Of a DNA stretch of 64,000 nucleotides, positions 47,134 through 57,990 are shown in pieces. The notes below the pieces were generated by a model that worked only from the letters and a program-made list of their open reading frames with translations, was not told the origin of the DNA and did not search any database. A program made the translations under genes and the position numbers. How positions within the stretch are numbered: the stretch's first letter is position 1; each line of letters begins with the position of its first letter. The DNA is from Cytophagales bacterium (lineage in GTDB: Bacteria > Bacteroidota > Bacteroidia > Cytophagales > 172606-1): positions 108,733 to 172,732 of the forward strand of contig JAUJMU010000013.1 of assembly GCA_030446715.1 (NCBI GenBank), written 5' to 3'.

Positions 47134-47913
47134 TCACTCCTCACTTCTCACTCCTGAACCAAACAGCTTCAGCGCATTTTCGGTGGTGATACGGTCCACT
47201 TCGGCAAGGGAAGTTTGCTTCAGGTCGGCCACCCGCTGGGCAATCAGGGAAGGTAAGCGGGTTGGTTGCGCCTGCCCCGGTGCGGCACCGGCGCAAGATA
47301 GGGACTGTCGGTTTCCAGCAGGAGGTGTTCCAGACCAATGTGGGGCAGTACCTGGTCCAGACCGCCATTCCTGAAAGTGGCAACGCCGCCGATGCCGAGC
47401 GAGAAAGCCGGAATCAATCACCTGCCGGGCGTCGGCGAGGTTGCCGGTAAAGCAATGGAAGACGCCGGTCAGGCCGCCGGTGCCAGTCTCTCTCAGCAAG
47501 GTCACGGTTTCGGCGAAAGAATTGCGGCAATGAATGATGATGGGCAACCGGTACTTTTTCGCCCAGCCGACCTGAATCCGGAATGCCTCCTCCTGCTGCG
47601 TCTTAAACTCGACCGACCAGTAGTAGTCCAGACCGATTTCGCCCACTGCGGCAAACCGCCGTTTCTGCAGCCAGCTTTCCACGGCTGCCAGTTCGGTTTC
47701 GTAGTCCGCATTCACATAGCAGGGATGAAGGCCCATGGTGGCGTAGCACTGGCCGGGGTACTTCTCTTCGAGGGCCAGCATTCCTTCCACCGAAGTCCGG
47801 TCAATGTTGGGCATGAAGATCTTGCGGACACCACTGCCAAAGCATTTCTCCAGCATGGCATCCCGGTCGGCACTGAACTCTTCGGCATAAATATGGGCGT
47901 GGCTGTCAATCAT
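47134..47913 (-). pseudogene. tatD: TatD-family metal-dependent hydrolase with two compensating indels
   Basis: TatD proteins are TIM-barrel nucleases with DNase activity. From the ATG at 47913 the protein opens MIDSHAHIYAEEF (first metal site), then GLHPCY, VGEIGLDYYW, IIIHCRNSFAET and VFHCFTGN. An extra base near 47397-47404 shifts the frame. The correct continuation ([34 protein letters not shown]) is visible in another frame. A missing base near 47248 returns it to frame for IAQRVADLKQT and the end. As read, about 50 residues, including the metal-binding Asp of ETDSP, are scrambled. This is either a dead gene or two assembly errors. Confidence 0.85.
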
Positions 47914-48270: not shown

Positions 48271-48940
48271 ACTCTACCCGGCTATTGTTGTTGGTTGATA
48301 ACGAGTGGCTTGAATAATTATCCATCGCAGTAGAGCTTTGACTCTGTTGATCATCCATCCGGGCATGAGTTGCTCAGAGCGGAATACTTCCCGGATGGTG
48401 TCAATGCCTTTGCGGCAAAAGCTGTTGGACTTATAGCCGTGGTTCCTGGTTTTGATCTTTTGCACTTTCCGGTGAATATAGATACCCATACTGATACAGA
48501 TACTGTAAGCCAAGCTCACCATTGCCACCAGCTTTTTAAGCTTGGAGAAGTCTTTCAGATGAGTCTTTTCCAGATCGAAGCCCCGCTCTTTGAAGGCTTG
48601 AAAACAGGGTAATACGGCCACAAATCCGTAATCCAGGTCTGCTTCCCGAAAGAAGTCCTGTATCCTGACCTCATTGGAAGTAAGCTTAGCACTGCCGTTG
48701 AGGTGATGGGCTACCTCACAAAATTGTACATTCCTGCTTTTAATCAAGCCTACTATGAACTGGCAGATGAACTTTCTTCGGGCCAGGTTCTTTACCATTG
48801 GGACTTTTCCCAGTACTCTTGTAATTTGCTCAACGAGGCTTTGCTTCATGGGAAGTATCGGTTTTGGCGTTTGATCACCTCAAGACTCGGCCTTCCCTTC
48901 TTTTTTACCTCGTCTTCACCCATTTTTAGTTGGGTAGAGT
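48271..48940 (-). mobile_element. IS4-type insertion sequence remnant, internally deleted (~670 bp)
   Basis: ACTCTACCC (48271-48279) and GGGTAGAGT (48932-48940) are inverted ends. The element holds a 191-codon frame on the minus strand. Full IS4-type elements of this kind are about 1.3 kb. The frame lacks the DDE centre. Confidence 0.7.
48274..48849 (-). pseudogene. IS4-family transposase with central in-frame deletion
   Basis: The N-terminal part (MKQSLVEQITRVLGKVP, SRNVQFCEVAHHL, RIQDFFREADLDY) matches a common Bacteroidota IS4-type transposase. It is joined at about residue 80 to the C-terminal part (GFDLEKTHLKDFSKLKKLVA, IHRKVQKIKTRNHGYKSNSF, GIDTIREVF). The middle, which would carry the catalytic Asp residues, is missing, but the frame remains open. 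It cannot be an active transposase. Confidence 0.8.
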
Positions 48941-48973: not shown

Positions 48974-49058
48974 TTCCATTAGAGTTTAAAGTGATTATTT
49001 GCGTAAACTATCAATATTTGATAATTTACGCAAATAATCACTTTAAACTCTAATGGAA
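48974..49058. promoter_or_regulatory. 85-bp palindrome upstream of the AbiE operon, probable operator
   Basis: Two 41-base arms (48974-49014 and 49018-49058), each starting TTCCATTAGAGTTTAAAGTG as read from outside, pair with a single mismatch (49008/49024) around a 3-base centre. The right arm ends immediately before the ATG at 49060. AbiEi antitoxins are known to repress their own promoter through inverted repeats, so an operator is the most likely role. Confidence 0.7.
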
Positions 49059-49059
49059 T

Positions 49060-49860
49060 ATGTCGCTGGCAGAATGGATAAATCAATGTTTATCGCGGGG
49101 GAAAAGTGCCTTTTCGTCAAAAGAGGTTAGAAAAGCCTTTCCTGCTGATTCCGAAGCAGCACTCACACTCAAATTAACCAGGCTAACAAGGAAAGGCAAA
49201 ATCTTGTCCGTTCACCAGGGCTACTATATAATTATCAGCCCGCAGTATGCCGCTAAAGGTATATTACCACCAGTTCTTTTTATCGACGGATTAATGAGAT
49301 TTCTGGAAAGGCCCTATTATGTAGGCTTACTCAATGCGGCTGCCTTTTATGGAGCCGCTCATCAACAACCACAGGAGTATTACGTCTTTACGAATGAGCC
49401 AGCGTTACGTGCTGCCCGGAAAAAAAATATTAAAATCAATTACGTCAGCAAAAAAAAAATTCCAGCACAGCTGCTGGAAAAAAGAAAAACGGAAACCGGT
49501 TATCTGACCGTATCATCGCCTGAACTAACTGCAGCTGATTTATTGCAGTTTGATAAAAGAATCGGGGGGCTCAACCGCGCGGCTACGGTGCTCTATGAGT
49601 TAGCCGAAGCCATCAGGCCGGAAAAGTTAAATGAAGATTTTTTAAGGCAGATACCCGTTGCTACCATACAACGTTTAGGCTATCTGTTGGAAAAAGTGGT
49701 ACAACAGCCCGAACTAGCGGGCCACTTACTGGAGCAAAGCCGAAAAGCAACCATGCGTTTTTTTCGCATCCCGCTCAGATCCTCGTATCCCACCAAAGGA
49801 TTTTCAACGGATGAAAAGTGGAAGGTAGTAATCAATACCCAAATCGAGATAGACCAATGA
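49060..49860 (+). CDS. abiEi: type IV toxin-antitoxin AbiEi family antitoxin
   Basis: A 266-residue protein of the AbiEi group. The N-terminal winged-helix part (residues 1-70: SLAEWINQCLSRGKSAFSSK, LTRLTRKGKILSVHQGYYII) binds DNA, and the C-terminal antitoxin domain contains YVGLLNAAAFYGAAHQQPQEYYVFT (about 89-113) and LTVSSPELTAADLLQF. Known AbiEi proteins neutralise AbiEii and repress the operon. Length is normal for the larger AbiEi type. The stop codon overlaps the next start (ATGA). The large palindrome directly upstream supports autoregulation. Base composition is lower in GC than the core genes. Confidence 0.9.
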   Translation: MSLAEWINQCLSRGKSAFSSKEVRKAFPADSEAALTLKLTRLTRKGKILSVHQGYYIIISPQYAAKGILPPVLFIDGLMRFLERPYYVGLLNAAAFYGAAHQQPQEYYVFTNEPALRAARKKNIKINYVSKKKIPAQLLEKRKTETGYLTVSSPELTAADLLQFDKRIGGLNRAATVLYELAEAIRPEKLNEDFLRQIPVATIQRLGYLLEKVVQQPELAGHLLEQSRKATMRFFRIPLRSSYPTKGFSTDEKWKVVINTQIEIDQ

Positions 49861-50645
49861 TTCCACAAGCCGCTATCACTGAATGGAGCAATCACGTACC
49901 CTGGCAAACCAATGAGCAGGTAGAGCAGGACCTGGTTATTTGCCGGGCTTTGGTTGAGATTTTTAATGACCCCTATTTAGCCGGTCACCTCGCTTTCCGG
50001 GGAGGAACTGCCCTGCATAAATTATATCTGCAACCCCAGCTCAGGTATTCAGAGGACCTGGATTTCGTCCAAATCAAGGCCGAACCGATTGGGGAAGTAC
50101 TCAATCATCTTCGGGTGGCACTTGCCTTTTTAGGAAAACCTAAAGTTGATGTGGGCGAGTCAATGGCCACCATGAAGTTTAAGTTCGATTCGGAAATGCC
50201 ACCTGCCGTTCCGCTACGGTTGAAAATTGAAACTAATTGTCGGGAACACTTTGCCCACCTGGGTTGGCAGCAAATGCCATTTACAGTTGAGTCAAGTTGG
50301 TATACGGGCGCTTGCCAACTGACAACTTATGCGATTGAGGAACTGCTGGGCACTAAAATCAGAGCCTTGTACCAACGGAAAAAGGGCCGGGATTTATATG
50401 ACCTCTACCACGCCCTGACCAGACTTGGCATGGATACGGATGCGGTAATAGCCTGCTATAAGCGATACATGGAATTTAGCGTGGGCAGTGCACCTACCCA
50501 AAAAGAATTCATCCTGAATATAAAGGATAAAACGCAGGATGCTTATTTCATCGGTGATATTGCCGGACTGATCCGTCCAACGGAAAGTTACAATCAAGCA
50601 GAAGCATTCGAACTCATTAAAAGGAACTTGATAGAAAAGATGTAA
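49857..50645 (+). CDS. abiEii: AbiEii/AbiGii family nucleotidyltransferase toxin
   Basis: A 262-residue protein of the DNA polymerase beta-like nucleotidyltransferase superfamily. The signature is LAFRGGTALHKLYL followed by RYSEDLDFV (about 44-71), giving the G-G-[ST] and D-x-D metal site. KGRDLYDLYH later matches the family RD-x-x-D motif. AbiEii toxins transfer nucleotides to cellular targets (tRNA in studied cases) and stop growth during phage infection. The ATG overlaps the abiEi stop by four bases, indicating translational coupling. All key residues are present. Confidence 0.9.
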   Translation: MIPQAAITEWSNHVPWQTNEQVEQDLVICRALVEIFNDPYLAGHLAFRGGTALHKLYLQPQLRYSEDLDFVQIKAEPIGEVLNHLRVALAFLGKPKVDVGESMATMKFKFDSEMPPAVPLRLKIETNCREHFAHLGWQQMPFTVESSWYTGACQLTTYAIEELLGTKIRALYQRKKGRDLYDLYHALTRLGMDTDAVIACYKRYMEFSVGSAPTQKEFILNIKDKTQDAYFIGDIAGLIRPTESYNQAEAFELIKRNLIEKM

Positions 50646-50715: not shown

Positions 50716-50916
50716 TTAGCACTGGTAACGATCTCTGATATGATCATTATAGTAATTACCCTTTGATCCAGCCTCCAGTAGTCCCGAGTAGATATGATAA
50801 GGCACCCGACAAAAATCGTAAGTATCGCCTTGCTGAAACGTAATTTTCAGGCGCTGCCGCTCTGCGTCATAGCCAACCGCACAGATGGCACTTGAACGAA
50901 CTCGAATCATTTCCAT
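50716..50916 (-). CDS. KTSC domain-containing protein
   Basis: From the ATG at 50916 the protein has about 66 residues. It follows the KTSC domain: VRSSAICAVGYDAERQRL, FQQGDTYDFCRVP, YSGLLEAGSKGNYYNDHIRD. KTSC domains are small, found alone or fused to lysyl-tRNA synthetases, and thought to bind nucleic acid; no reaction is known. A longer frame to 50982 would use TTG. It sits between the AbiE and Wadjet operons, but co-function is not shown. Confidence 0.8.
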   Translation of the reverse strand: MEMIRVRSSAICAVGYDAERQRLKITFQQGDTYDFCRVPYHIYSGLLEAGSKGNYYNDHIRDRYQC

Positions 50917-51079
50917 TGAGGTAACAATAAATTTACAATTTGGATCCAATGCAACGACCGTCCAAGCTTGATTATCCTTCAACTCTAATTCAGTTTGACG
51001 TCATACACTAATCCATAATCATGTGAAGCCCTGCCAGAAGACCTGAGACTTCTGGGCAAAACCTGCGCAGCTATGAGTT

Positions 51080-52246
51080 TTAGGGTAATATTGAATACAA
51101 AACTTGATTTACGTACGCCTGTGGCAACTTTTCCTGCTCTAATCTATTCTTGTTATCTAAAGTTTTTAAGTATTTGTAAACATGTGCTTCCTCTGCGGTT
51201 AAAAAACTAAGCGTGTCGAGTTTACTACGCGGGCCGTTCACGGCAAATTCGTTATAATTATCAAAAGTGTGCCTATCCATCATGATACTTCTTGTCTTCG
51301 GGTAGTAACTTCGTAGTTGGTGCAATATTTGGAAACCATGCACATCAAGATCTCCCCAATAAAAAATGTTTTTATCGGTTAGCCACCTGGCATTTTTCAA
51401 GTAACTGACGTTAAATCCTCCGCCACTCCAAAGAGACAAAGTAGAAAGCAAAGGAGGCAGCGTTAGGAAATTCATTTTATTTTCCGCTATCAATACATTT
51501 TCTGCAGGAAAGCTCGTTTGCTCAAAATCCGAAAGAGGTACACAAACGTCCTTTAGTCTGTCATCCAACAATCCAGCTTGATCCAAAAACATGATGCGGA
51601 TTAATGGTTCATCGTATTTCAGAAAATAACGTTCTGCAAAACGCTTTTGACCTGCATTCCGGATATGATCTGGGATTAAAAAGTCCAGGAGTGACTGTAT
51701 CAGCGCAACATTTTCTTCGATAAACTTGGTATGAACTTCAATGGGCAACTGGCGAATGTACAAGTTGGGACGGGGGGTGTTAATAAAGTACTTACACACT
51801 TTAAGAACATCAACCCAATCAATTATAGGCTCTGTCAACCAGAGGCAGTTATGAAATGCCCAATTTCTTAATGAAGGGATGGTATGTACAATTTGCTCAT
51901 AGTGCAATAAAAATAGTTTCCAGTCCTTTTTTTTTCCCGTGAAAGCCACGTAATCCTCTACTGTTTCGAATACGACCGAATCCGGTAACTCGTGACTACC
52001 CGTGCGCCGGAAATTCCGGTCGGCGGTTTTTACCAGATAGCCACTCCCCGTTTGGTTTTTAGAATGGCGGAAAAGCGCTTCGATTTCCTGCTGCAATGCC
52101 TCAAAACGACTCGTTACCTGCCCGGACTGTACTTTGCCAACTCTATCAATGGATTTAGGGAAGAAAGAATCGCCTGTGATGTAGCTCTGCAGGAACGGTT
52201 TCCACCATTTGAGGGCCTGCTTTCTTATCTCCCCGGGGCTTATCAA
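51080..52246 (-). CDS. jetD: Wadjet system protein JetD (DUF3322/DUF2220, Toprim-like nuclease)
   Basis: A 388-residue protein. The N-terminal arm (DUF3322, about 1-180) is followed by a DUF2220 Toprim-like domain with the metal-binding YWGDLDVHGFQILHQLR (about 299-315). In characterised Wadjet systems JetD is the nuclease that cuts small circular plasmids sensed by the SMC complex. Length fits type I JetD. Its start, a TTG, overlaps the jetC stop (TTGA), indicating a coupled operon. It is the last gene of the operon. Confidence 0.9.
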   Translation of the reverse strand: MISPGEIRKQALKWWKPFLQSYITGDSFFPKSIDRVGKVQSGQVTSRFEALQQEIEALFRHSKNQTGSGYLVKTADRNFRRTGSHELPDSVVFETVEDYVAFTGKKKDWKLFLLHYEQIVHTIPSLRNWAFHNCLWLTEPIIDWVDVLKVCKYFINTPRPNLYIRQLPIEVHTKFIEENVALIQSLLDFLIPDHIRNAGQKRFAERYFLKYDEPLIRIMFLDQAGLLDDRLKDVCVPLSDFEQTSFPAENVLIAENKMNFLTLPPLLSTLSLWSGGGFNVSYLKNARWLTDKNIFYWGDLDVHGFQILHQLRSYYPKTRSIMMDRHTFDNYNEFAVNGPRSKLDTLSFLTAEEAHVYKYLKTLDNKNRLEQEKLPQAYVNQVLYSILP

Positions 52247-55200
52247 GGTAATTCGGCGTTTTGGAATACACTGTTATGCTTCATCTTCTCGGACTCATAC
52301 GCTTCTTTGGTAAAACTGCTGACCTGCGAATTGTTTCCTTCGCGGTTGCTCACAAAATGAAAAGAGTTTACGTGCCCTTCAATGACGTGGATTTTTTGTA
52401 AGGGCGTTACAATAAGCAGTTGCAAATTTAATTTTTTGAATAGTTCCAGCCCGTAACGGGTGCTTTCATCACTCCCGCGTCCAAAAGCCTCATCAATGGC
52501 CACGAAACGGAAGCTCCGGCTCTTGCTTTCACCGAACTGCAAACCAAACTGGTACGCAAGGGCACTGGCAAGAATAGTATAGGCCAGCTTTTCTTTCTGC
52601 CCGCCACTTTTACCCCCGGAACCTTCGTAAAATTCCTTCTCGGAATCATCGGCCCGATAACGTTCACTGGCATTAAATTCAAACCATTGCCTTACGTCCG
52701 TAACGGTACTCGTCCAGTCTTTGTCACTACTGTCCATACTGGCAAAACGGTCGAGGATACGTTTCACCTGCTCATATTTTTCTTCGGTGTACAATTCGGC
52801 GTTGCTGCTAAAAGAATGAATGTAACATTTCTTCAGTTCTTCCCGGAACAGGCGAACGTCCTTGTTGGTGGTTGCATCCATCAAAATGGTGATGCAGGTA
52901 TCCTGGGCGGCGTTATAAACAATCTCGGCGAGATGCTGATTGATGGTACGTATTTTTTGTTTGATGTCTTTTTCATGTTTTTCCAACTGGCTGTCAAACA
53001 CAGCAATACTATTAATGGTATTCCGGTTCAATTCTTCTTTAAAGCGTTCCTCGTGGCGCTTCAGATCTTCTGATACCAGCTTTTCAAATTTCTTCATATA
53101 CTCGGCTCTCGCCTCAATACTTTCCGCGATTTCGCTGTACTCAGCCCGTGAATGCTCTTTGATCTCCCGCATTTTTCTTTCTATGGAAGAGCGGATGCCC
53201 ATTTGCCTGCCCCGAAGTCTTTTCAGTTCACCGGAGTCTCCCTGAAACTGCTTTCTGAATTCCTCCTGCCGGTTATCTATATTTTTGAGTGTAATACTTT
53301 TTTCAGTCAGTTTCTCTTCAATCACAGGAAACCATCTTTCCTGCTGATGCTGATTTGTCTGTTCCGTTTGTCGCCTGGTACTGTCGGTTTGCTCGTGCAA
53401 GTGCTGGATGCTATTTTTCAGCCCCCCCACTTTTTCCGTAGCCTGGGTTTCTTTCGCTTTGGTCTGAGCGATCATTTTCTCAGTTTCGATCTTGCTTTTC
53501 TCCAGCAAGGCAAGCACGTCGTTGTTGGTGAGCAATTCGTTACGATCTTGTTCCAACTGGTATATCTTTTCTACGTGGTACTGCCAGTTGAGGCGCGTAT
53601 AGTCTTTCTGGCTTAATAAAACCGCCAACTGTTGTTTTAACGCCTCGTTTTTTCTTTGTTGATCTTCAAGGGTAGCCTGCTTACCCGCCAGCTGTTTTAC
53701 TGCTGCTTCCAGCTTACTGAGCGAAGATTCTAGCGTTCTTATTTTTTCCGTATTACTCCAGCCCAGCACGTAGTTCCGGCGGTCATCCAGCCTTTGCCGG
53801 TCATCTTTCGTGTGCCGGATTCGTCCGCTCTTGATCAGTCCCTGCCGGGTAATGCCGTATGGTACGTGTTGCAGGCCGGTTATATCCGTGCCGATGTAGT
53901 CCCCGAAACTGCGGTGGAGGTACGTTTCGAGCCATTCATAAAAAGGCGTATCTGGTTTAATATCTACCTTACAGATAATGCTGTCACTGTCCGGTTGTTT
54001 AGTGGTGCGTCCATTCGCAGCCAGGTCCGCTTCCAGGTAAGTTAATTTTATACCCCGTCCATCGGCTCCCCTTAATGGGTTATCGTTGACGTATTGGCTG
54101 ACACTGCGGTAGTGAATTTTAGGCACCAGCAGGCTGATACCGGTATCCCGCAATAGTTTTTCGATCGCACCTTCCCATTCCTTTTCGCTGTCATTGACGC
54201 GTAGCAACTCACCCGCGAAGGGAAGTTCTTGTTCATGGATGCGCAGATCAGCACAAAGCTGAACGCGAAAGCCGATTAGCCAGGCAGGTATCTGAGTTTT
54301 ACGCGCTTTTAATGACTGTAGCTCCCGTTGTTCCGTCTGGTATTCCGTCTCCTGTCGGCGCAACTCACTTACTACGTTATCCCTTTCATCCCTGAGTTCA
54401 CTTTCGCGCGAGGTACATTGTTCATTGAGCCGGTTTGCCCGCTGAATGTTTGCCTGAAAATCTTTTTCTTCATGGATGTTTTTAAGACCACACTGCGCGG
54501 CCAGCCGTTGGTAATCATCAAAATCCTTTTGTTTGTCTTTTTTGTCCTGCTCGTGACGTTTGATTTCTTCTCCTATTTGTTCGATGCGTTTGCCGCCGTT
54601 GCCCGCAATATCCTGTAGGATTGCCTGTCTTTTATCCTCCAGGCTGTCTACCTCTTTAGCCAACCGTTGCTGCTGGTGGATTTCCTGCGCTAACTCTGCT
54701 TGTGCATTGGCAATGGCTTTTTCCAGCAACAGCAGTTTCTTTTGGGCGAACCAAACCGGCATGGCTTCCAGCATCGCTTCTATGTCTTCAATTTCCTTTA
54801 TTACGTTCCCGTATTCTACACAAGCCTCTATCAACGGTTTTAACATCTGGTGTTGTTCGCGGGCGTGCACTACAGCGGTATGGGCGGTCTTGAGGTCGTC
54901 AAACCGTTTGAGCAGGGCAGATATCTGATCCTTTACATCGGTTTGTTCCAGCATCTGTTCCCGCACAAAATCAGTCAGGCTGCTTACCGATTTCATGGAT
55001 ACCGTCTGGTAAAACAGGTCAATGGCTTTATCGCTGTTCATACCAAAAAGCCTGCGGAAATGTTCACTATATTGGGTGAAGTTATCGTTGAACAATTGGA
55101 TGCCTTCGGTACGGCGCAATCGCTTGCGCAAATCATGGATGTCTGTAAAACCGCTGAAATGCTCTTTAATGGTAAGGGCTTGGGTACCGATTACCAACAA

Positions 55201-55647
55201 TTTTTCTACTTTTCCCTCGTTTCCAATCCAGAAAAGCTGTGCCAGACACACTTGTTCCCCATAACCTTCGTTGTAAAAATTACCAATAATTACGGTATAG
55301 GTATTATCGTCTGGCCGGAGGTAGACTTTTCTGGCTACTTTGGTGATTTCTTCCTTCTCTTTTTTGTATTCTCCTTTCACGTAGCTCAGCAGATTACGTT
55401 CTTTCCCCTCTGCCCCGGCCGCTTTATTGAACACAATCTTGTTGTGCGGTACCAAAAGACAGGTGAGCGCATCTACCAGCGTAGATTTACCCGAACCAAT
55501 ATCCCCGGTAAGCAATGTATTATGGCCATCAAGTTGTATTTGCCAGCGAACCTTGTTAAAGGTGCCCCAATTGAACACCTCCAGATATTGCAGGCGAAAG
55601 CCTGCTTGAGGCGTATTTTCTGTGAACGGGGGTATCAGTTCTTCCAT
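52243..55647 (-). CDS. jetC: Wadjet system SMC-like ATPase JetC
   Basis: A 1,134-residue SMC/MukB-like ATPase. Walker A is GDIGSGKST (48-56). Two long coiled coils (about 300-480 and 650-950) flank a hinge-like region. The C-terminal ABC signature is SGGKSGGQKEK, and Walker B is FVAIDEAFGRG. In Wadjet, JetC with JetA and JetB forms a condensin-like complex that extrudes DNA loops and exposes small circular DNA to JetD. Length is typical. It follows jetB by 12 bases. All ATPase motifs are intact. Confidence 0.93.
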   Translation of the reverse strand: MEELIPPFTENTPQAGFRLQYLEVFNWGTFNKVRWQIQLDGHNTLLTGDIGSGKSTLVDALTCLLVPHNKIVFNKAAGAEGKERNLLSYVKGEYKKEKEEITKVARKVYLRPDDNTYTVIIGNFYNEGYGEQVCLAQLFWIGNEGKVEKLLVIGTQALTIKEHFSGFTDIHDLRKRLRRTEGIQLFNDNFTQYSEHFRRLFGMNSDKAIDLFYQTVSMKSVSSLTDFVREQMLEQTDVKDQISALLKRFDDLKTAHTAVVHAREQHQMLKPLIEACVEYGNVIKEIEDIEAMLEAMPVWFAQKKLLLLEKAIANAQAELAQEIHQQQRLAKEVDSLEDKRQAILQDIAGNGGKRIEQIGEEIKRHEQDKKDKQKDFDDYQRLAAQCGLKNIHEEKDFQANIQRANRLNEQCTSRESELRDERDNVVSELRRQETEYQTEQRELQSLKARKTQIPAWLIGFRVQLCADLRIHEQELPFAGELLRVNDSEKEWEGAIEKLLRDTGISLLVPKIHYRSVSQYVNDNPLRGADGRGIKLTYLEADLAANGRTTKQPDSDSIICKVDIKPDTPFYEWLETYLHRSFGDYIGTDITGLQHVPYGITRQGLIKSGRIRHTKDDRQRLDDRRNYVLGWSNTEKIRTLESSLSKLEAAVKQLAGKQATLEDQQRKNEALKQQLAVLLSQKDYTRLNWQYHVEKIYQLEQDRNELLTNNDVLALLEKSKIETEKMIAQTKAKETQATEKVGGLKNSIQHLHEQTDSTRRQTEQTNQHQQERWFPVIEEKLTEKSITLKNIDNRQEEFRKQFQGDSGELKRLRGRQMGIRSSIERKMREIKEHSRAEYSEIAESIEARAEYMKKFEKLVSEDLKRHEERFKEELNRNTINSIAVFDSQLEKHEKDIKQKIRTINQHLAEIVYNAAQDTCITILMDATTNKDVRLFREELKKCYIHSFSSNAELYTEEKYEQVKRILDRFASMDSSDKDWTSTVTDVRQWFEFNASERYRADDSEKEFYEGSGGKSGGQKEKLAYTILASALAYQFGLQFGESKSRSFRFVAIDEAFGRGSDESTRYGLELFKKLNLQLLIVTPLQKIHVIEGHVNSFHFVSNREGNNSQVSSFTKEAYESEKMKHNSVFQNAELP

Positions 55648-55659
55648 GTACAGTTCCCT

Positions 55660-56229
55660 TTATTCAGTTACTTGCTTTTCAGAGGCATAAGCTTGCAACT
55701 TTTTTAATGCCTCATCAACCACGTCTGCATTTACAAAACCTTTGATGATCCGGTGTAGCTCATAGTTTCTTTGATTGTCTTCCAGTTTTCGCAGAAAGCC
55801 TATTTCAATCACCTTACTGATGGTGGCAACAATCTTTTCCTGTTGTTTCGCCTCATCTGGTGCTTTAGGTAAAAAGACCTTTGCCCGATTAATGATCTCC
55901 TGTTCACTGATAATGGAACGCACTGCCCCGCCCTGGGCATCCTGCTCCAGCAGATACTTTCTTAAAAGAAGAGACAACAAAGAAGTAAAGAAGTTGAGTT
56001 GCCTTTTTTCAACCAGTTTTGGAAGCGCGGTCTCCTCGGCTTCCCATTCTTTTTGGTATAGATAGGCAAAGCCTTCGCTTTTGTTGAGGTATAATTGGAG
56101 GCCTACAGGCAAAAAATATTTTTTTACGTCTGGCTCATAGCGTAAAAGATTCTCCCATGTCTCTTTCTGATAATCATACACGATACCTTTCAGCAAGGCA
56201 ATCAGACTTAAAGAATATTCGCGATTCAT
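55660..56229 (-). CDS. jetB: Wadjet system protein JetB (DUF4194)
   Basis: A 189-residue protein of the DUF4194/MukE-like kleisin-associated type. It has FFLPVGLQLYLNKSEGFAYL, LLSLLLRKYLLEQDAQGG and LRKLEDNQRNYELHRIIKGF, typical of winged-helix JetB proteins. It is the accessory subunit that holds the JetA-JetC ring together. Length (about 190-230 in the family) is normal. It lies three bases after jetA and 12 before jetC. Confidence 0.88.
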   Translation of the reverse strand: MNREYSLSLIALLKGIVYDYQKETWENLLRYEPDVKKYFLPVGLQLYLNKSEGFAYLYQKEWEAEETALPKLVEKRQLNFFTSLLSLLLRKYLLEQDAQGGAVRSIISEQEIINRAKVFLPKAPDEAKQQEKIVATISKVIEIGFLRKLEDNQRNYELHRIIKGFVNADVVDEALKKLQAYASEKQVTE

Positions 56230-56232
56230 AAT

Positions 56233-56727
56233 TTACCGGTTAAAAATGATCAGGGGTGACCGCAGACGATACCTTTTCCCGCTGTCTCTATCTTCCACCC
56301 GTATTTCCTCCTTTTCGTCATGGTTCACGTAATGCTTATCACTGGTGGTGGCTATCTGGATGTAACCCAATACTTCAGCTACCCCCTTAGTCGGTTTGTA
56401 TTGGTTTAACACTTCCGATAACGCGGCTTGGGATTTACTCCGCAACAGGGTTCTGACATTATTTCGTAACGCTTCAATATCTACATAAAATTGTTCAAAC
56501 AATAGGTAGGTATCAGCCTCCGATTTGCCATCTACTATTTCCGTTTTTTCGAAGGCTACTTTTACGGGTGGCCTGAAAAGCGGCCTTTCCATAATTAATG
56601 CTGGTTTAAAGAGCCCCGTAATCTCTTCCATGTCACCGGCGGGCAAGTTCAGCCGAAAAACGCCTCCATAATTGAGGATGTTTTTTTCTTCGTTCCGGGC
56701 CGCAATCAGAATGGAAATTTTGGGCAT
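56233..56727 (-). pseudogene. jetA: Wadjet JetA (DUF3375), 5'-truncated and fused to a foreign start
   Basis: JetA is the kleisin-like subunit of Wadjet, normally about 470-500 residues. Here only the C-terminal about 145 residues are present (LFEQFYVDIEALRNNVRTLL, LNQYKPTKGVAEVLGYIQIA, SGKRYRLRSPLIIF). The first about 17 residues (MPKISILIAARNEEKNI) are not JetA-like but look like the N-terminus of a family 2 glycosyltransferase. The junction lies near 56675. The operon therefore lacks most of jetA, and a functional complex is unlikely unless another copy exists. The sequence upstream is a rearranged mosaic. Confidence 0.85.
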
Positions 56728-56740
56728 TATCAGTCTGGAT

Positions 56741-57990
56741 CTGGATTTTCAGGATTGCCGGAATTGCCGGATTACCTGTTGATGGATTGACTTATTCAGG
56801 GATTTCAGGGGAAAATATCTGTGCCTCTGCGGTCCGTGTAAAACATTTACACTTAAAGCTTCATGAACTGGTATTCTTTTCCGGCAAAATATTCCATGAA
56901 ACGGGGAAGCACGTACTGAAGATCACTAAGTTTTGATCTGTAGAAGATTCGTGCGGATAAGCCGGGAATTTGAGGCTGTCGATTATAAGACTTTTATCTG
57001 TCTAAACGGGCAACTGATAACGCAACAACTACTTAGCCGTTTGAATGGGAACGGGCCGTCGCCTTTATTGTGAAACGTGCTGGCCGAGCCGGCGCAGGGC
57101 AAGGCAGACATTTCCCGGGTGAAAGGGTCTGGTCAAAGTCGCCGCTGGAGCAGGTCTGGGAGCGAAATAAAAGCCAGCACGCTCGCCGCTGAACGCCTGC
57201 CGGAATAATCAGCTGGTAATCTTTGCGCAGGGTGTGTAGCCGCCCGTGGCTGGCGGGTCATGCCGCGGATTTTCCGTGCGCATGGGGCCGGAACAGCCGG
57301 GGCGGCTCGTTCCGATGCGTTGCTGGCAAAGACCCAATCAGTATTATGGATATAGTCAGCGAAGCCCGTGATTTCCAGCCGGGTTCAGGTGAAACTGCGG
57401 CTTGTCGGTTATAAGTGTGATTGTCACCGGCGGGCCTACCGTATGGCGCAATCAGAATGGAAATTTTGGGCATTATCAGTCTGGGATTTTCAGGTCGGAC
57501 CGGATTCCTGAACACTTCCGGGTGCTTGCCGATGTTGTCCCCGACACAGAAAAAGCCGTTTTCCGTCGCCTTTATTGTGTTGTGCAGACATTTCCCGGGT
57601 GAAAGGGTCTGGTCAAAGTCGCCGCTGAGCACATCCCACATAATCAGCTGGTAACTTCCAGAACCCAGCCGGGGCGGCTCTCGATGCGTGCCTGCTCGGG
57701 AATGGGCCCATCGTCGTTATAAGGTGAGGTGCAGCATTTTCTCACCGCTGTGCCGGTGCCACACTCGGTTATACTTCCGGGTGCTTGCCGATGTTGCGAC
57801 ACAGAAAAAGGTAGCTTCTCCCGTAGCCGGGTACTTCCAAACCCACTCGGTTACCTCGGGAATGGGCCCATCGTCGAAGGTGAGGTGCAGCATACCGCTG
57901 TGCCGGTGCCACAGGTTATACGGAAAAGAAGGGATTCTTGTGCCAGTACATATTATAACTGAAAATTGAAAACGGGGTGTCCTGATCCGG
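56741..57990 (-). pseudogene. scrambled polysaccharide deacetylase remnant (duplicated mosaic)
   Basis: The minus strand carries pieces of a NodB-type polysaccharide deacetylase out of order and repeated: LHLTFDDGPIPEVTEWV, ATFFCV, GDNIGKHPEVF, MWDVLSGDFDQTLSPGKC and the end QYVLPRFMEYFAGKEYQF (about 56863-56925). The MPKISILIA start also recurs at 57447-57484. Exact direct repeats include 57104-57147 with 57584-57627 (44 bp), 56701-56738 with 57447-57484 (38 bp), 57514-57537 with 57773-57796, 57696-57716 with 57856-57876, and 57721-57737 with 57877-57893. No intact gene is present in this 1.2-kb stretch. Confidence 0.8.

Follow-up and report, generated by a model that had tools for sequence, protein, structure and literature searches.

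We analyzed a type I Wadjet operon in a 64,000-nucleotide stretch of DNA from a Cytophagales bacterium (GenBank assembly GCA_030446715.1, contig JAUJMU010000013.1, forward-strand positions 108,733 to 172,732; hereafter the window). The operon is a genuine type I Wadjet whose upstream border is unreliable. Genes jetB, jetC and jetD are intact. Of jetA only the 3' end is written, and it is joined to the beginning of a gene for a GT2 glycosyltransferase. The junction lies at the border of a scrambled patch that holds pieces of GT2 and of a polysaccharide deacetylase gene (PDA). We favor, with a probability of about 0.55, the explanation that this upstream border reflects an assembly or consensus fault, in which case the written sequence would leave the real state of jetA undecided. 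The features concerned are:

51080-52246, minus strand: jetD (nuclease subunit), intact, its TTG start overlapping the jetC stop by 4 bp
52243-55647, minus strand: jetC (SMC-like ATPase), intact, 1134 amino acids
55660-56229, minus strand: jetB (KITE subunit, MukE-like), intact
56233-56625, minus strand: 3' remnant of jetA, last ~129 codons, open and not unusually diverged
56626-56727, minus strand: 5' end of the GT2 gene, ~34-36 codons, in frame with the jetA remnant
56631-57951, minus strand: scrambled patch, in which two partial copies of PDA and the GT2 start, both forward and collinear, are interleaved

The three intact genes are open, overlapping or tightly spaced, and laid out as in other Wadjet operons. 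For each of JetB, JetC and JetD the best PADLOC model, in all cases of type I, was matched nearly end to end. The jetD product matched DUF3322 (PF11795) and JetD_C (PF09983) in Pfam and JetD1 in PADLOC (E 1.4e-138). JetC has both nucleotide-binding ends (AAA_29 at residues 19-79, SbcC_Walker_B at 981-1071), with the JetC1 model spanning residues 8-1125 at 1274 bits, and JetB matched DUF4194 (PF13835, E 1.3e-32) and JetB1 (E 4e-59). In contrast, the 164-residue open reading frame (ORF) next upstream of jetB (56233-56727, minus strand) is a chimera. It matched only positions 350-474 of the 474 in the DUF3375 profile of Pfam and only 355-478 of the 480 in the JetA1 model of PADLOC, and it is therefore not the complete JetA, a kleisin of the DUF3375 family, that a type I Wadjet requires. 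A preliminary description of this DNA, made without database searches, had already noted the intact jetB, jetC and jetD with their tight spacing and the cut jetA, all of which the profile matches bear out. Its estimate of about 145 JetA residues was too long: by alignment to intact JetA the JetA part is ~129-130 residues, homologous to ~345-474 of intact relatives. It was also right that a GT2 N-terminus precedes this piece, which however covers about 36 residues and not 17, as the GT2-like part runs on through RLNLPAGDMEE. Within it, five codons (YGGVF) depart from the homologues: in every one of 20 distinct GT2 sequences aligned at the start (the query from relative G006 plus L193-L211; L192 is G006 again, and the L040 match starts later), this position reads C[LM]..[LIV]. 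Shifted to the +1 frame, these bases give MEAFFG, which resembles the CLEA found in several homologues; two small compensating indels in the GT2 start are thus probable.

The patch itself is not a gene. It contains 12 exact repeat pairs of 11-44 bp that follow the same order in both copies (A and B) and are interleaved as A1-5, B1-3, A6-9, B4-5, A10-12, B6-12. Merging neighboring repeats leaves six blocks, for which perfect order would occur by chance 1 time in 720, a figure to be taken as a rough guide. One 1.5-kb step holds 11 repeat pairs of at least 12 bp, whereas the average step across the window, with the patch counted in, has 0.43; the repeats are far from chance. In translation, the patch opens with PDA residues ~1-70, passes to 19-39, 135-168 and 57-72, then to the GT2 start and back to PDA; at its end, PDA pieces lead to the PDA stop, then GT2 comes again and then JetA. 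Three points within it are:

57555-57656, minus strand: PDA residues ~135-168, followed directly by PDA ~57-72 at 57507-57554, a backward jump
56981-57035, minus strand: copy of a short genome repeat, lodged among PDA pieces
56856-56924, minus strand: 3' end of PDA (DLQYVLPRFMEYFAGKEYQFMKL, stop near 56856)

No inverted pieces were found in the patch, where the longest inverted match is 10 bp. PDA matches scoring 38 or more occurred on the coding strand only, the opposite strand reaching at most 34 (maxima of six shuffles, 33-38), and against PDA, GT2 and JetA the opposite strand scored no better than shuffles. The last patch repeat ends at 56631 and JetA homology begins at ~56625. Because the two lie within ~6 bp of each other, jetA was most likely cut by whatever scrambled the patch. 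The preliminary description had placed a junction near 56675 and offered a decaying insertion or a minimal JetA as its explanation; it overlooked the patch, and of its proposal the cut and the GT2 start stand, whereas neither decay nor a minimal JetA is supported, as discussed below.

Candidate GT2 body pieces in the patch (e.g., DKPQFHL, 57386-57412) are not claimed: with a profile built from the query and 21 homologues, one being the query's own locus, the best score was 37.3 and the maximum of 25 shuffles 33.9, yet an unrelated stretch close by reached 37.9. The patch also shares 15 bp with the region before TatD, a match that falls within the range given by shuffles and was set aside. The repeat lodged among the PDA pieces belongs to a ~55-bp family (TAAGTAGTTGTTGGTTATCAGTTG...CTTATAATC) scattered in this genome, with other copies at C7:419448, C11:63699, C11:41201, C10:87763, C19:150530 and C4:67493. 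The patch copy shows indels against the six longest other copies, and a 31-bp part of the repeat is also present in G001, a genome of the same genus.

The surroundings could be compared with an uninterrupted site. In two relatives (G006, locus L045; G001, locus L040) the genes PDA, GT2, TatD and asparaginase follow one another in this order on one strand. The window has the same strand and order of pieces: PDA pieces and the GT2 start lie upstream of the operon, and downstream of it, on the same strand, are:

47134-47913, minus strand: TatD DNase gene, frameshifted, the neighbor of GT2 in the two relatives
45917 to ~46980, same strand as TatD: asparaginase gene, frameshifted at a run of six G

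The window differs from the two relatives in that PDA is shuffled and the GT2 body is gone, with an island of about 8.3 kb (48.3-56.6 kb) in its place that holds the Wadjet operon, a KTSC-domain protein gene, AbiEii and AbiEi, and a remnant of an IS4-like transposase gene. The GT2 start adjoins TatD in the relatives and is separated from it here by Wadjet and AbiE genes, which argues that a small defense island stands, in the sequence as written, where the GT2 body would be. The PDA-GT2 arrangement is not universal, since the two genes are apart in G004. GT2 is common: among 148 genomes of the order, 75 gave a match with an E value of 1e-60 or lower. The genome studied here gave no match at this threshold, its best being 25% identical, and thus no intact GT2 orthologue was seen in it. 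Neither did a search for an intact copy elsewhere in the genome that could have donated the patch pieces find one, by DNA for PDA or GT2 or by protein for GT2. A tRNA-linked insertion was also considered and set aside, as the window has no tRNA. The GT2 gene of G001 (L040:7253-8287) itself carries a frameshift, and between it and TatD there is a short tandem repeat that translates as IVELLNC.

We infer that the cause lies in the assembly rather than in biology. A Wadjet and AbiE island would have been placed where two relatives have PDA-GT2-TatD; at its upstream border a faulty assembly would have written the sequence of the PDA-GT2 locus twice, interleaved, and in the same fault joined the GT2 start to the middle of jetA. 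The chimeric ORF would then most likely be a product of assembly or consensus, and a complete jetA, lost in the join, may exist in the real genome. Since the jetA junction is the edge of the scrambled patch, a full jetA emerging on reassembly is a live possibility. Consistent with such a fault, the repeats keep the same order in both copies with no inverted match longer than 10 bp, the patch comes within ~6 bp of the first JetA residue, and the jetA remnant is not decayed. The local, forward-only duplication with interleaving is, we assume, of the kind that consensus and gap-filling faults leave in assemblies. The frameshifts in TatD and asparaginase, next to open jetB, jetC, jetD and AbiE genes, and broken repeats in a clustered regularly interspaced short palindromic repeats (CRISPR) array likewise suggest local assembly faults.

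This array came up in a scan of the same genome that covered 100 further stretches, together 1.99 Mb with overlaps counted, or about 30% of it. Each stretch was scored by its chains of collinear repeats whose offsets change. The patch scored 10, 99 of the 100 other stretches scored at most 5, and one, containing the array (L156:13927-15605; contig C4, about 222.9-224.6 kb; repeat core CTTTCAATACCATCAGGTGCGATTAAAAC), scored 13. The array has 19 exact copies of a 29-bp repeat, which leave 18 intervals, and in six of these there are broken copies of the repeat. Toward both ends it is near-regular: the spacings run from 63 to 72 bp for the first seven and are 66, 123 and 66 bp at the far end. In the middle they range from 58 to 249 bp, and spacers between neighboring exact copies vary from 29 to 43 nucleotides. 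Natural CRISPR arrays keep a near-constant period. The broken array may have suffered the same kind of damage as the patch.

Several observations weigh against an assembly fault. The repeats are exact and of unequal length, unlike the single-base noise of raw long reads. The missing N-terminus of jetA was not found elsewhere in the assembly. Outside the CRISPR array, the other 99 stretches scanned contain no second scrambled patch, and the array cannot serve as one on its score, as simulated perfect arrays (five each of 19 and 20 repeats) also reached 12-13; natural degeneration can also break such arrays. Because of these simulated scores, we lowered the probability of an assembly fault from 0.6 to 0.55 and slightly raised that of a real rearrangement. 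The open state of jetB, jetC, jetD and the AbiE genes may be counted on this side as well. Comparisons of error rate do not show the assembly to be generally bad: 12 genes set against a complete relative, a small number, had 0 frameshifts in 10.9 kb. Frame switches in codon usage numbered 89 in 839 kb versus 19 in 400 kb in G004, about twice the rate, in a count that also takes in shadow coding and missed the frameshifts of TatD and asparaginase.

The strongest alternative, which we regard as appreciably less probable, is that the patch is real DNA, left at the island border by a recent burst of template switching in the forward direction or of illegitimate joining. PDA and GT2 pieces would have been duplicated and shuffled, jetA would have lost its first ~345 codons and GT2 its body, and the operon would be freshly inactivated and bound to decay. 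The island and the GT2 start are indeed adjacent in the assembly, which has no intact GT2 orthologue, an undecayed jetA remnant fits a recent event equally well, and a patch unique in the part of the genome scanned is what a single event would leave. Large spontaneous deletions that remove a Wadjet operon are also documented (PMC12287153). However, pieces that are all forward and collinear and alternate between two advancing positions would be an odd product of template switching, and the broken CRISPR repeats and the frameshifts in TatD and asparaginase point instead to local assembly faults. Template switching normally also yields inversions and disordered jumps. It is doubtful, although conceivable, that a genuine scar of repeated forward switching at two advancing positions beheaded the Wadjet operon and shuffled two genes in one event; the broken CRISPR array could then be a second product of the same process. 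If the patch is real, it offers an unusual example of bacterial chromosome shuffling at an island border.

A working minimal JetA, which would close the JetC head with its C-terminal domain and need nothing else of the protein, appears very improbable. In its favor, the remnant is conserved, has an open frame that ends 3 bp before jetB, and could still be translated from the GT2 start codon. However, a scan with JetC, one genome per species, gave 13 loci in Chitinophagaceae and other Bacteroidota, with JetC 60-76% identical in the best segment, and jetA was full length (474-500 codons) in 10 of 10 with uncut upstream DNA; the remaining three are cut off by a contig end within jetA. None of the ten has a short JetA, and neither do the same-genus genomes G001 and G002, whose Wadjet systems are more distant (JetB 40% identical). 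Compared with the JetA of Pelobium manganitolerans (L067), at 35-43% identity, the match in G002 spans residues 15 to 474 in one frame. In G001 (L043:9023-10394), an assembly of 210 contigs and 75% completeness, the match spans residues 15 to 465 but is read in two frames, and jetB has an internal TAA stop; thus, damaged Wadjet genes are not unique to the window. A DUF3375 family search of the whole assembly (6.43 Mb in 25 contigs, estimated 98.15% complete) matched the 56233-56727 locus and no second place. Full-length JetA in relatives and this lone match leave a minimal JetA family, with short homologues conserved elsewhere, without support.

Function argues the same way. According to a review (PMC10586767), all four Wadjet subunits are required against plasmids in B. 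subtilis, the two SMC motors are joined by kleisins that dimerize at their N-termini, and JetABC are thought to extrude DNA loops, thereby activating the JetD nuclease on small circular DNA. The JetA N-terminus that links the motors is missing from the written sequence, and an operon taken literally from it should be inactive. A full jetA copy elsewhere in the genome, acting in trans, is the least probable explanation: the assembly, at an estimated 98.15% completeness, may lack a gene, but the DUF3375 search gave one place only.

The window system resembles most closely the type I Wadjet of the Bacteroidota lineage and lies on a small defense island with AbiE. Like the loci of P. manganitolerans, a Niabella metagenome-assembled genome (L063) and Dyadobacter sp. 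3J3 (L070), it has the order A-B-C-D, short gaps and the JetC-JetD stop/start overlap, at identities of about 74-76% for JetC, 74-75% for JetB and 67% for JetD. It differs in jetA, which has 474 codons in these loci and only the last ~129, fused to the GT2 start, here. In Dyadobacter sp. 3J3, jetC is read as two ORFs.

Decay of the remnant was also assessed. That a GT2 start stands ahead of jetA agrees with the earlier idea of a decaying insertion into a GT2 gene; decay is not supported, as the remnant has no stop codon and, measured against JetB and JetD, is conserved as in intact operons. JetA minus JetD identity averaged -1.3 points for the 10 pairs that include the window and -1.0 for 30 comparison pairs (those of the 45 other pairs with JetD identity of 48-70%), and JetA minus JetB averaged -10.3 and -13.2, respectively. 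Five close relatives hinted at excess divergence of the remnant, which was gone over the 30 pairs at similar distance. The remnant is open and not unusually diverged, and jetA was therefore probably intact until recently, or is still so in the living cell.

The finding is mostly a caution. With a scrambled patch beside it, the jetA truncation should not be taken at face value, yet surveys of single assemblies that count defense systems or propose minimal variants would log a truncated or fused JetA here. An ordinary Wadjet set beside garbled sequence by an assembly fault is more likely than a new shortened protein.

The remainder of the island consists of:

50716-50982, minus strand: KTSC-domain protein (Pfam match), between Wadjet and AbiE
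49818-50645, plus strand: AbiEii, open, matched in Pfam and PADLOC
49060-49860, plus strand: AbiEi, open, matched in Pfam and PADLOC
48274-48849, minus strand: remnant of an IS4-family transposase, NCBIfam profile positions 241-325 of 340

The transposase remnant had no Pfam match, and its NCBIfam score of 47.5 bits is below the cut-off of 152. Adjoining it, and immediately before the AbiEi start codon, is a 41-bp inverted repeat (48974-49058) whose arms are 98% complementary and 3 nucleotides apart.

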